Positions 18,344-22,503 of a DNA stretch of 64,000 bases are shown here, one piece after another (position 1 is the first letter of the stretch; each line of letters starts with the position of its first letter). The DNA comes from an uncultured Selenomonadales bacterium (GTDB lineage Bacteria > Bacillota > Negativicutes > Selenomonadales > Selenomonadaceae): assembly GCA_900321035.1 (NCBI GenBank), contig ONUH01000001.1, positions 310,001 to 374,000 on the forward strand, in the 5' to 3' direction. The notes beneath the pieces were generated by a model. That model searched no databases, was not told where the DNA came from, and was given only the letters and a program-made list of their open reading frames with translations. A program made the translations under genes and the position numbers.

Positions 18344-18419
18344 TGGTGGAGACGAGGGGGATCGAACCCCTGACCTCCTGCATGCCATGCAGGCGCTCTC
18401 CCAGCTGAGCTACGCCCCC
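18344..18419 (-). tRNA. tRNA-Ala (GGC anticodon)
   Basis: A 76-nt cloverleaf with an encoded CCA end. The acceptor stem GGGGGCG pairs with CGTCTCC; the D arm is GCTCAGCTGGGAGAGC; the anticodon loop ATGGCAT gives GGC; the T arm includes GGGGTTCGATCCCC. It has its own promoter and terminator. Confidence 0.97.
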
Positions 18420-18468: not shown

Positions 18469-18507
18469 TTATCCAAGAAAAATTTCGCCTCGAAGCGCAT
18501 CCGTCAT
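18469..18507 (-). CDS. Possible 12-codon peptide MTDALRGEIFLG
   Basis: A very short reading frame that starts in an ATGA overlap with the stop of the 30-codon frame before it, and has an unusually good ribosome site (GGAGGGG, 5 nt upstream of ATG). It overlaps the tRNA-Ala promoter. It may be a chance frame; it is listed because of the ribosome site and the chain of overlapping starts and stops that begins with the radical-SAM gene. Confidence 0.25.
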   Translation of the reverse strand: MTDALRGEIFLG

Positions 18508-18596
18508 ACTTTCCCCTCCGCTGCGGCGAGAAAAGCATCTACACTCGACAATCTGCCGCATGCGAAATCCAAGAATATTCGACCGCCCTGTTTCAT
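18504..18596 (-). CDS. Possible 30-residue peptide after the HExxH gene
   Basis: The frame starts in an ATGA overlap with the HExxH protein stop and encodes 30 residues beginning MKQGGRIFLDFACG. It has one cysteine and a GG pair but no clear leader/core pattern. No separate ribosome site is seen, so translation would rely on coupling. Given the RiPP-type maturase two genes upstream it is a candidate substrate, but it could equally be chance sequence. Confidence 0.3.
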   Translation of the reverse strand: MKQGGRIFLDFACGRLSSVDAFLAAAEGKV

Positions 18597-19480
18597 CCTT
18601 TTGCTTTCAAACGCTCCGCAAGGCTCGTCCCCGCCAAGGCGAAAAGCAGCTTTGCGTCGCTCTCCTTTCTTGCCAGCCGCCCGTTCATCTCGTCGGCTAC
18701 GTCGTCCAGCACCGTGTCCACGGCCCGGTATATTGCGGCGCGTTCTTCCGGCCGCACGTTTTGACAATAAAAGGAGAGCCTCCCCGTGCAGGCGTCACCG
18801 CCGCGTTTCAGGCCGAAAAAGATCCGCTGCCGGTCCGCGTCAAAAGAACCGAATGCGGCTATCTGCCCCATGCCGTCGGCAAGGATTTCATCGAACGCGT
18901 GGTTTTCCATACCCCCAAAAAGCCGCAGCGTTTCATAATGAACGCACTCATGACGCAGACGCAGCCGATGGGATCGTTCCAGCCATTCCTGATTGGGAAG
19001 TCCCAGTTTCTCAGCGGGAATATTGCTGTAAGGCGCGCTGTTCAGCAACAACACGCGGTGACGAAAAATAGCCTTCGCTCGCGCCTCGAGCGTAAACGCA
19101 TTCACCGTCGGCGGCAGCTCCAGCGCCTCCGTCCTTGCATTGAGCAGCGCTTCCATCTGCCGAAAATCTTTGTGACTCGCCGTGGCGACAGACGGAAGCC
19201 GTCCGCCCAAGGTCTCCGCGAAAGAAATCTTCAGCGCCTTCCTGTCTTCCCATGGGAACCGAAAGGCCGGAAGTCCGAACTCATCCGCCAAAAAATCCAA
19301 AACCGCTCCCCCGGACGCCTCCCGCCAAGTTGCGGCAAACGATTCATCCGCAAGCGGTCGTTCCGGCAATTCCGCCGGAATCTTGTAGCTATGCCGCAGA
19401 TACTCTGCAGCGGATATATAGCCGTCTATCGGCGGTTGCGTTTGCTTTTCCCGTTCTCCTTTTCCCGCGCTTTCCATCAT
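18593..19480 (-). CDS. HExxH-motif protein of unknown family, coupled to a radical-SAM maturase
   Basis: This 295-residue protein has no signal peptide. The clearest feature is HECVH at residues 177-181 followed by FDEILADG, with E198 sixteen residues after the second histidine, which resembles the gluzincin zinc site HExxH...E. Flanking regions are helical. Its ATG overlaps the stop of the radical-SAM gene as ATGA, so the two are made together. HExxH proteins occur beside radical-SAM peptide modifiers in other bacteria, where they are thought to act on the same peptide; here that is inference. It could be a protease or a non-peptidase metal enzyme. Confidence 0.6.
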   Translation of the reverse strand: MMESAGKGEREKQTQPPIDGYISAAEYLRHSYKIPAELPERPLADESFAATWREASGGAVLDFLADEFGLPAFRFPWEDRKALKISFAETLGGRLPSVATASHKDFRQMEALLNARTEALELPPTVNAFTLEARAKAIFRHRVLLLNSAPYSNIPAEKLGLPNQEWLERSHRLRLRHECVHYETLRLFGGMENHAFDEILADGMGQIAAFGSFDADRQRIFFGLKRGGDACTGRLSFYCQNVRPEERAAIYRAVDTVLDDVADEMNGRLARKESDAKLLFALAGTSLAERLKAKG

Positions 19481-21447
19481 TTCTCCCCCGTACTCCCCAC
19501 TCTATCCACAGGGAGCGCCAAATACTCATCGCCGATATGCAACACTATATTTTCCTCTTCCAGCCAATTTAACGCCGTCCGTATCGCCTCCGCCGGGTAA
19601 CGGCCCGAAAGCCGCTCAAAAACCGCACGTTCCCTCATCGTATTCCGGCAGGCACGCAGCACGTCCGCCTCCGCTCCCTTGATATGGCGAATCGGGACAT
19701 GGGCAATCATTCTCGTGTCAAGCACCTTGATTTCGTCTCCAATGTCCTTCATGAAAAGCAGCTGCTGCTCGTTCCGCCATTCCTCGGAAAGTCGGTAGAG
19801 CTTCTCATAGGACGGGCCGATGCGGCGGTAATCATAATACTTCGCCAGCTCTTCCTCGTCCTCCGGCGCGTAAAGGTGAACGGCGCGGCGAATGTATTCT
19901 CTGTCAGGAAACACGAAATCATAGCCGCGGTCCGGACGCAGCTTCGGCGCAAGAGGATCTTCCGGATGCTCCATGTAATAATTGTAACGAAGATACATCA
20001 TATGAGCGACCGTATTCGGCGTTTCAAGGTGCATGATCTTGGGGATTACCGCGTCGTCCTGCGCCATCATCTCGTCCGTTTCCCCCGGCAGACCGAGCAG
20101 AATATACCAAAGCACCCTCATATCATGGGCGCAGCAATGTTTAAGCGTTTCCACCTGACGAATCGCCGAAACGCCTTTGCCCATCAGCCGCAGCCGTTCG
20201 TCGGAAAAGCTCTCGATTCCCGCCTGCACCCAGAAAAATCCCGTCTCTGCCAGCCGTACCACGTCTTCCTCGGACACCGGCGACTTGATCTCGGAAAAAA
20301 GCCGCAGCCCATGCTGCCCGTTCCACCCCTTCTTCCAATACGGTTCCCGAGCCGCCAGCGCCTCCGGCAGTCCCTTTTGATGATGCAGGCTCATCACATT
20401 GCCCGTAAAATAGCAGTGAAAGCCCGGGTAATCCCTCGAAAGCTGCGCCAGCTCGTCTGCCAGCCGTTCCGTGGATTTTTCACGATACAAGTGCGCCGTA
20501 CTGCCATTCAGCCCGCAGAAGCGACAGGGATGCTTCGCCGCCCACCAACAGCCCCGTGAGTCTTCCGCCGTGATAATCCTGACGTCCGTCTGATCCGGCA
20601 GAAGCGCATCCCGCTCCCGGAAATAATCGCTGAAATCCGGAATCGGCAGCGCGTCAAGATTTTTCGTAATCTTCGCCGGGGGCGCCGTCATCCGGGTCCG
20701 GGATACGACGCCGTCGGGAAGTTCCTCGTCCGGTATTTTCCCGTCCTTCAAAAGCCTATGGCACATCGGCGCAAGTATCTCGTCCGCCTCTCCTGTGAAT
20801 ATATAGTCAAACGGCTCGAAAAACTCGATCATCGCCTGCCCCGCGTCGCCCTCGCAATTCGCTCCGCCCGCCATGATGATCGGCGCGTCTTTTTCTTTTT
20901 TCAGCCGCTTTGCCAGTGCAATCGTCGCATTCTGTTGCTGATACATGGACAAGAACGCAACGATTTTCGCGCCGCTCTCTTTTACGCGGCTGACAGCCTC
21001 GTCAAGATAATCTTCCGCCATATCCCGGGCTTCCTCAAACAGCGCGAGCTTGTCGAGTGTCTCATTTCTCTGATCGCCGGCGAAAACTTTACCTGGCAGA
21101 TGCTTCTCCCGCATCCAGCGCAAATATTCGTCAAAAGAGCGCAGCTGCTTGCCGTCATGAGCCGCATCCGCAAAAATCGCTTCGCAGGCGAAATAGTCGT
21201 GCCCATACCCTATAGTACAGACGTGCATAATGCCCTGTTGATACTTTTTCACGCCGATACGATTTGCAAAGTACAAGAATTCATGCTGGACGCGGCTTTT
21301 GATCCCCGCCTGCGTCAGAACCGCCTTGAAGAGCGCCAGTGTGATGCAAGGCATATATTGGTCGCAAAAGGGCATCGTGACAAAAAGAACGTCCGCCTTT
21401 GTATTGCCTGGAATACTCGGGCTCAATGCCTTTCCCTCGTCACGCAA
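19477..21447 (-). CDS. Radical-SAM protein of RiPP-maturation type (CX7CX2C)
   Basis: The 656-residue protein has a B12-binding-like Rossmann region at about residues 15-240 (ending DYIFTGEADE) without a clear DxHxxG, then a radical-SAM core. The cluster cysteines C300, C308 and C311 are in RGCWWAAKHPCRFCGLNG, the CX7CX2C arrangement of the ribosomal-peptide maturation radical-SAM group, not CX3CX2C. The last 110 residues look like a winged-helix region (LDTRMIAHVPI onwards). The start is TTG at 21447 with GGAGGG. It follows rfbB by 33 bp and overlaps the HExxH gene. No precursor is obvious. Confidence 0.8.
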   Translation of the reverse strand: MRDEGKALSPSIPGNTKADVLFVTMPFCDQYMPCITLALFKAVLTQAGIKSRVQHEFLYFANRIGVKKYQQGIMHVCTIGYGHDYFACEAIFADAAHDGKQLRSFDEYLRWMREKHLPGKVFAGDQRNETLDKLALFEEARDMAEDYLDEAVSRVKESGAKIVAFLSMYQQQNATIALAKRLKKEKDAPIIMAGGANCEGDAGQAMIEFFEPFDYIFTGEADEILAPMCHRLLKDGKIPDEELPDGVVSRTRMTAPPAKITKNLDALPIPDFSDYFRERDALLPDQTDVRIITAEDSRGCWWAAKHPCRFCGLNGSTAHLYREKSTERLADELAQLSRDYPGFHCYFTGNVMSLHHQKGLPEALAAREPYWKKGWNGQHGLRLFSEIKSPVSEEDVVRLAETGFFWVQAGIESFSDERLRLMGKGVSAIRQVETLKHCCAHDMRVLWYILLGLPGETDEMMAQDDAVIPKIMHLETPNTVAHMMYLRYNYYMEHPEDPLAPKLRPDRGYDFVFPDREYIRRAVHLYAPEDEEELAKYYDYRRIGPSYEKLYRLSEEWRNEQQLLFMKDIGDEIKVLDTRMIAHVPIRHIKGAEADVLRACRNTMRERAVFERLSGRYPAEAIRTALNWLEEENIVLHIGDEYLALPVDRVGSTGEK

Positions 21448-21480: not shown

Positions 21481-22503
21481 TTATTTTGCGGTTCCGTAAT
21501 GCTTTTCATAATACGCGGCATACACGCCGGAAGTCACATGCTCCCACCAAGACCGATGCGCAAGATACCAGTCAATCGTCCGGCGTATGCCGTCCTCAAA
21601 ACGCGTCGCGGGGAACCATCCCAATTCCGACCTCAGCTTCGTCGGATCGATAGCATACCGCAAATCATGGCCTTTTCGATCCTCTACGTGACGAATCAGG
21701 CTTTCCGGCTTTTCAAGGGCACGCAAAATTATTTTCACCACATCGATGTTTCGCTTCTCGTTATGCCCGCCGACATTGTACAGGCTGCCCGCTTTTCCTT
21801 TTCTTATAATCAAATCGACAGCCGCGCAATGATCCTCCACATAAAGCCAATCCCGCACGTTCTCTCCCGTGCCGTACACCGGCAGCGGCTTGTCCGCCAA
21901 GGCGTTCAAAATCATCAACGGAATCAATTTTTCCGGGAAATGATACGGGCCGTAATTATTCGAACAACGCGAAATACTCACCGGCAGCCCGTAAGTACGA
22001 TGGTACGCCTGCACGAGGAGGTCGGCGGCCGCCTTCGACGCGGAATAGGGACTGGACGCGTGCAGCGGCGTCGTCTCCGTAAAAAACAGATCGGGCCTGT
22101 CCAACGGCAAATCGCCGTAAACCTCGTCGGTAGAAACCTGATGAAATCGCCGCACGCCATACTTTCGGCAGGCATCCATCAAAACCTGCGTACCCAGAAC
22201 ATTTGTACGGAGAAAAAGCCCCGGCGTTTCGATGGAGCGGTCCACATGACTTTCCGCGGCAAAATTCACCACCACATCCGGTTGCTCTTCCGCAAAAAGA
22301 GAATCCACCGCCGCCTCGTCGGTAATATCCCCCTTCACGAAACGAAACTGGGGGGATTCCATTGCTTCCTCCAGCGTTTCTAAATTCCCCGCGTAGGTCA
22401 GCGCGTCGTAGCAGATAATCCTGTCCTCGGGATAACGCGCCAATTCGTAATATACGAAATTTGAGCCGATAAAGCCCGCGCCGCCCGTCACAACAATCTT
22501 CAT
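21481..22503 (-). CDS. rfbB: dTDP-glucose 4,6-dehydratase
   Basis: This 340-residue short-chain dehydrogenase fold enzyme makes dTDP-4-keto-6-deoxyglucose. It has GGAGFIGSNFV at residues 7-17, the TDEVYGDL block with catalytic Thr-Asp-Glu, YSASKAAAD with the catalytic Tyr/Lys, and SRCSNNYGPY. Its ATG overlaps the rfbC stop (ATGA). The rhamnose pathway also needs RfbD, which is not in the window. Confidence 0.96.
   Translation of the reverse strand: MKIVVTGGAGFIGSNFVYYELARYPEDRIICYDALTYAGNLETLEEAMESPQFRFVKGDITDEAAVDSLFAEEQPDVVVNFAAESHVDRSIETPGLFLRTNVLGTQVLMDACRKYGVRRFHQVSTDEVYGDLPLDRPDLFFTETTPLHASSPYSASKAAADLLVQAYHRTYGLPVSISRCSNNYGPYHFPEKLIPLMILNALADKPLPVYGTGENVRDWLYVEDHCAAVDLIIRKGKAGSLYNVGGHNEKRNIDVVKIILRALEKPESLIRHVEDRKGHDLRYAIDPTKLRSELGWFPATRFEDGIRRTIDWYLAHRSWWEHVTSGVYAAYYEKHYGTAK

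Follow-up and report, generated by a model that had tools for sequence, protein, structure and literature searches.

Genes between rfbB and tRNA-Ala

The window (the whole 64,000-nt stretch of DNA analysed) belongs to a 2.4-Mb Selenomonadaceae genome, G000. In it, rfbB (21481–22503) stops 33 bases ahead of a gene for a 656-aa protein, and a tRNA-Ala gene at 18344–18419 lies next to the end of two tiny frames. The original prediction, which had placed a 656-residue radical-SAM protein with a CX7CX2C motif directly after rfbB and in an ATGA overlap with an HExxH gene, was correct on all these points. The features are as follows.

19477–21447, minus strand: gene of the B12-type radical-SAM RiPP maturase family TIGR03975 (rSAM_ocin_1), 656 aa, TTG start (NCBIfam/Pfam profiles, dN/dS)
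20515–20550, minus strand: CX7CX2C cluster motif CWWAAKHPCRFC, residues 300–311 of the 656-aa enzyme (sequence)
19477–19480, minus strand: ATGA overlap of the TIGR03975 and DUF7005 genes (sequence; kept in G128/L049)
18593–19480, minus strand: DUF7005 (PF22541) protein of 295 aa with an HExxH motif, a putative processing metallopeptidase (Pfam, dN/dS)
18938–18952, minus strand: HECVH (HExxH) motif, residues 177–181 (H177 in 51/52, E178 in 52/52 and H181 in 52/52 relatives)
18875–18892, minus strand: DEILAD motif, residues 197–202, with E198 as candidate third metal ligand (D197, E198, A201 and D202 each in 52/52 relatives)
18504–18596, minus strand: 30-codon frame, tested and judged not part of the system (L050: one silent, one replacing change)
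18469–18507, minus strand: 12-codon frame, tested and rejected (frameshift and lost stop in L050)

The 656-aa ORF, whose TTG start is preceded by a GGAGGG ribosome site, matched the full NCBIfam model TIGR03975 (RiPP maturation radical SAM C-methyltransferase) with 437.9 bits (cut-off, 281.85 bits), residues 20–647 being aligned with positions 1–606 of 606. This profile search bore out the proposed RiPP-type maturase. Pfam gave a Radical_SAM match, together with a weak match to the B12-binding domain PF02310 (19.9 bits, below the cut-off of 32.1), and the B12 region resembled several B12/radical-SAM models, every score being below cut-off. By family, the enzyme is a B12-type radical-SAM RiPP C-methyltransferase, with C-methylation as its putative reaction. 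The CX7CX2C motif class has also been reported for PoyB/PoyC and the bottromycin methyltransferases, and PoyC methylates a valine residue (PMC5682303).

The 295-aa ORF scored 117.6 bits against Pfam PF22541 (gathering cut-off, 27 bits), the best stretch corresponding to the C-terminal half of the model. Alignment of 52 DUF7005 sequences revealed a conserved HExxH followed by conserved acidic residues (DExxAD), and no obvious signal peptide was seen in the protein. Between the window and G128, a genome of the same genus, dN/dS was 0.095 for the TIGR03975 gene and 0.13 for the DUF7005 gene; purifying selection on both genes indicates that both yield functional proteins, and their ATGA overlap suggests that they may be translationally coupled. 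When both proteins and the DUF7005 profile were compared by sequence with solved structures, no usable relative emerged; a DUF7005 structure model built from five input sequences reached a pLDDT of 44, too low for fold comparison, and none of the papers searched dealt with DUF7005.

Both tiny frames begin within an ATGA, and a GGAGGGG ribosome-site-like stretch precedes the 12-codon frame. These features, present as originally read, are what speaks for one of the frames being the precursor peptide. However, an ATGA end is shared by 9 of the window's 50 long ORFs, counted over all reading frames and with shadow ORFs, and the overlaps of the tiny frames are no more than chance. L050 is a near-identical strain (99% over DUF7005, with 9 differences in 639 bases); its 12-codon frame carries a cluster of substitutions and one inserted base, by which the stop is lost, and the tiny frames change faster than the adjacent coding DNA; for the more distant L049, the comparison covered 13 bases only of the 30-codon frame. 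Because of the frameshift and changes in L050, and because ATGA junctions are common, the tiny frames are not supported as genes. They are also without leader or cleavage motif, and a normal Nif11 precursor is present in the intact clusters described below. The conservation check largely ruled out a tiny frame as substrate, and we regard that model as hardly credible. Of the two outcomes that together would have counted against the original prediction, one was seen: the tiny frames were not conserved, whereas the enzyme fell in a peptide clade and not in a non-peptide one. The suggested tie to surface polysaccharide through the dTDP-rhamnose genes was rejected as well, since the rfbB junction is common only to G128 among the genomes inspected; orthologues elsewhere sit away from rfb genes, mostly by Nif11-type precursors.

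Relatives of the two genes and the precursor on contig C28

The closest clade of the enzyme (60–83% identical) has members in seven further Selenomonadaceae genomes, one of them a fragment, and in four genomes that belong to a single genus of a second family, among them Succiniclasticum ruminis. In a tree with two outgroup paralogues this orthologue clade had a support of 100/100, and its members often adjoin Nif11-type precursors. Succiniclasticum (Acidaminococcaceae) possesses an intact cluster, in S. ruminis DSM 9236 (L037), L038 and G241, which contains on a single strand the genes for DUF7005, a SPASM enzyme, a Nif11 precursor, a TIGR03975 orthologue (66–67% identical to the window enzyme), two HlyD-like proteins and NHLM ABC1 and ABC2. 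The order in G133 is SPASM radical SAM, Nif11 precursor, TIGR03975 orthologue and ddpX, and in both G118 and G119 the enzyme orthologue is preceded by an ORF with a Nif11 leader and by one of 130 aa with a GG leader. The 130-aa protein was discarded as a general substrate, a search of the window's genome, run without a positive control, having found no homologue. It was also noticed that in G129 (L126, 8930–10868) the orthologue starts in frame with an apparent Nif11 leader start, MATINTNGLVKEQTEKA, and that a truncated leader comes after it, as though recombination between leaders had placed the enzyme gene inside that of a precursor. A literature search on RiPPs of Selenomonas and Succiniclasticum found nothing relevant.

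No Nif11-type precursor was found in the window, beside the maturase or elsewhere. Another contig of the same genome carries the following feature.

G000:C28:37626–37886: Nif11 precursor of 86 aa, with AVAGG at the end of the leader and VKTCYMVDGCAFKCGTLKDC as core

The C28 precursor begins 14 bases after the gene of a SPASM enzyme and is directly followed by ddpX, in place of the TIGR03975 orthologue of G133, the order being otherwise the same. The SPASM enzyme best resembles CefB, TIGR04463, Clo7bot and PapB maturases, all below cut-off. NHLM transporter genes on this contig are homologues of HlyD2, ABC1 and ABC2, with ABC1 76–78% to that of S. ruminis; the NHLM family models were run on homologues from G062. 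The core, which carries four Cys, is identical at 20/20 positions to those of L038 and G241 and at 18/20 to that of S. ruminis DSM 9236, IKTCYMVDGCSFKCGTLKDC. Between the two families its codons show 8–10 silent and 0–2 replacing changes (0 where the core is 20/20 identical), and the leaders are identical at 37/64 positions (58%). Silent changes dominating in the core beside a divergent leader indicate strong purifying selection on the mature peptide. G128 is likewise split, having the precursor on one contig and the enzyme pair after rfbB on another; the arrangement is therefore seen in two assemblies.

The window's genome contains further RiPP precursors. About 20 dispersed Nif11-leader precursors, most with short, Cys-bearing cores, were located on contigs C11, C28, C29, C12 and C21 (L160–L165), many of them without an adjoining maturase. 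One protein of 234 aa on C28 (L161, 8603–9307), also seen at L127 (13471–14175) and L213 (630–1334), consists of a Nif11 leader, a short Cys-rich stretch and a Hint (hedgehog/intein-type) domain; it is kept in several genomes of the genus, and a self-processing RiPP precursor would be unusual. Contig C25 (L004, 3956–9460) holds a proteusin-type cluster in which NHLP precursors with cores rich in Val are accompanied by a TIGR03975 paralogue and an epimerase of PoyD type (TIGR04517).

DUF7005 occurs in 46/189 genomes of the family and 56/380 of the class. Nif11 leaders were present in 40 of the 46 genomes with DUF7005 versus 19/143 others (p = 4e-20), and within the largest genus alone, estimated at ~67 genomes, in 14/19 versus about 12/48 (p = 3e-4). 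At the loci inspected the gene often adjoins RiPP genes, such as TIGR03975 in the window and L049 and SPASM/Nif11 pairs in L042, L046, L067 and L068; many further copies stand alone. At L057 (6831–12629, G062), and also at L056 and L076, it lies inside an NHLM operon together with ABC2, TolC and a relative of the peptide arginases, whose match to the FlmR/OhkR family is below the family cut-off. Two further arrangements were noticed: a full-length DUF7005 gene directly behind a PoyD-type radical-SAM epimerase gene in another family of the class (L226, 29–2496, G315; partly masked), and a flavodoxin-like sequence replacing the C-terminal part of DUF7005 at L036 (9956–11272) and likewise at L052, either an assembly join or a real fusion. 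In the DUF7005 tree the window copy falls among copies from its own genus, most of them stand-alone, and apart from those of Succiniclasticum. Therefore, the TIGR03975/DUF7005 pair was not moved as one block, and the physical link arose at least twice or was rebuilt; either way, a working relation is favoured.

A probable split pathway and its alternatives

We consider that the window pair is one half of a Nif11-leader RiPP pathway, displaced from the precursor, the first enzyme and the exporter on C28, and give this reading a probability of about 0.6. The idea of a peptide-modification system had been raised originally and agrees with a TIGR03975 assignment well above cut-off; its alternative version, in which the substrate is encoded elsewhere, likely holds, given the Nif11 precursor on C28 and the intact clusters of relatives. 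Of the 8 precursor carriers in a set of 380 Negativicutes genomes, 6 also have the TIGR03975 orthologue, which has 11 carriers in all (p = 3e-9, relatedness uncorrected). The near-invariant core and the association of DUF7005 with Nif11 leaders, NHLM operons and a PoyD-type epimerase speak for the same reading. Against the split pathway, the two halves are on different contigs and are linked through the gene order of relatives and co-occurrence. The enzyme and the C28 precursor do not pair as a strict rule: G130 (86% complete) and G131 (80% complete) hold the precursor without the orthologue, and G129, G137, G118 and G119 hold the enzyme without the VKTCYMVDGCAFKCGTLKDC core. In addition, G245 has the enzyme without DUF7005, and the ~20 Nif11 and 4 NHLP precursors of the window's genome make other substrates possible. 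The separate placing of the window and Succiniclasticum copies in the DUF7005 tree also counts against the reading, as do the low pLDDT of the DUF7005 model and the negative outcome of the search for solved relatives.

For the split pathway, we infer a substrate, an order of steps, their chemistry and a protease role as follows. The precursor would be made from C28 and bound through its Nif11 leader. The SPASM radical-SAM enzyme would act first, probably forming thioether links at the four Cys, and by analogy with PoyC the B12-type enzyme of the window would then C-methylate the SPASM-modified core, a C–C cross-link being an alternative product. The C39 domain of the NHLM transporter would cut the leader at Gly-Gly, and DUF7005, as a putative HExxH...E metallopeptidase, may make a second cut, as MfuP does, trimming leader or core either ahead of the C39 peptidase or in parallel with it.

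The same pair might instead serve many of the dispersed Nif11 precursors, as ProcM does with the prochlorosins. In line with this, the Nif11 leaders on the five contigs carry varied, often Cys-bearing cores, orthologues of the enzyme adjoin different cores in G133, G245 and G118/G119, and for the prochlorosins a single promiscuous enzyme is described that serves many Nif11-class precursors (PMC10783134). However, four genomes (G133 and three of Succiniclasticum) combine the orthologue with the near-invariant core, suggesting that one substrate is favoured, and we hold broad-substrate tailoring to be unlikely. Still less probable is an NHLP precursor on C25 as a substrate shared with the TIGR03975 paralogue there. 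That paralogue (46% identical) does adjoin NHLP precursors and a PoyD-type epimerase, but the C25 cluster has its own enzyme, and the window-enzyme orthologues form a separate, fully supported clade beside Nif11 and not NHLP precursors.

A rival for one component concerns DUF7005, which might act in RiPP systems as a metal-dependent tailoring or immunity protein and not as a peptidase. The NHLM transporter already supplies a C39 leader peptidase, HExxH by itself is no proof of protease activity, and the structure model is poor. On the other hand, an HExxH followed by an invariant DExxAD suits gluzincin-type metallopeptidases, and two-step processing by a PCAT and a metallopeptidase is known for MfuP in a lanthipeptide pathway (PMC10885120). 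A role other than peptidase for DUF7005 is possible but somewhat doubtful. Returning to the split pathway, its fullest form is put forward tentatively, with the balance tilted against it: a conserved, probably housekeeping-like peptide VKTCYMVDGCAFKCGTLKDC would receive thioether and C-methyl layers, DUF7005 would represent a new RiPP metallopeptidase family, and in two Selenomonadaceae genomes the second layer would have its genes in trans, as an ATGA-coupled pair.

Comparison with known systems

Radical-SAM methyltransferases, SPASM maturases, Nif11 leaders and NHLM export are each already known, and so are Nif11 precursors encoded apart from their enzyme, as in the prochlorosins. Prochlorosin cores are highly variable, whereas the VKTCYMVDGCAFKCGTLKDC core is nearly invariant. 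Bacteriocins change fast, and such near-invariance is rather what a peptide whose target or role is fixed would show. Our searches met with no account of DUF7005, this core or the split arrangement. RiPP mining links enzyme to substrate via adjacency, so that the window pair would be discarded or mis-assigned; one study left out TIGR03975-only clusters as likely false positives (PMC9426513). The intact relatives supply a testable substrate for the orphan enzyme and a first functional lead for DUF7005.

The window enzyme shares with PoyB/PoyC of polytheonamide and the bottromycin methyltransferases the cobalamin-type radical-SAM architecture, the CX7CX2C motif and a RiPP context (PMC5682303), but those enzymes work in proteusin and bottromycin systems, whereas the window clade adjoins Nif11 leaders, Cys-rich cores and a SPASM enzyme. 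DUF7005 is likened to the metallopeptidases of RiPP maturation (MfuP of M61, AplP of M1, and TldD/E), which carry out metal-dependent trimming and are sometimes encoded outside the cluster (PMC10885120); unlike them, it could not be linked by sequence to any solved protein, and its peptidase role is putative. Among the prochlorosins, too, Nif11-class precursors are not all beside the modifying enzyme (PMC10783134), but the chemistry differs, being lanthionine formation by ProcM. The Nif11-leader/NHLM systems of Haft and co-workers have in common with the present one a Gly-Gly-ending Nif11 leader, a radical-SAM maturase and NHLM ABC1/ABC2 export with a C39 peptidase, whereas here two radical-SAM classes and DUF7005 are present and the enzyme pair lies away from the precursor.
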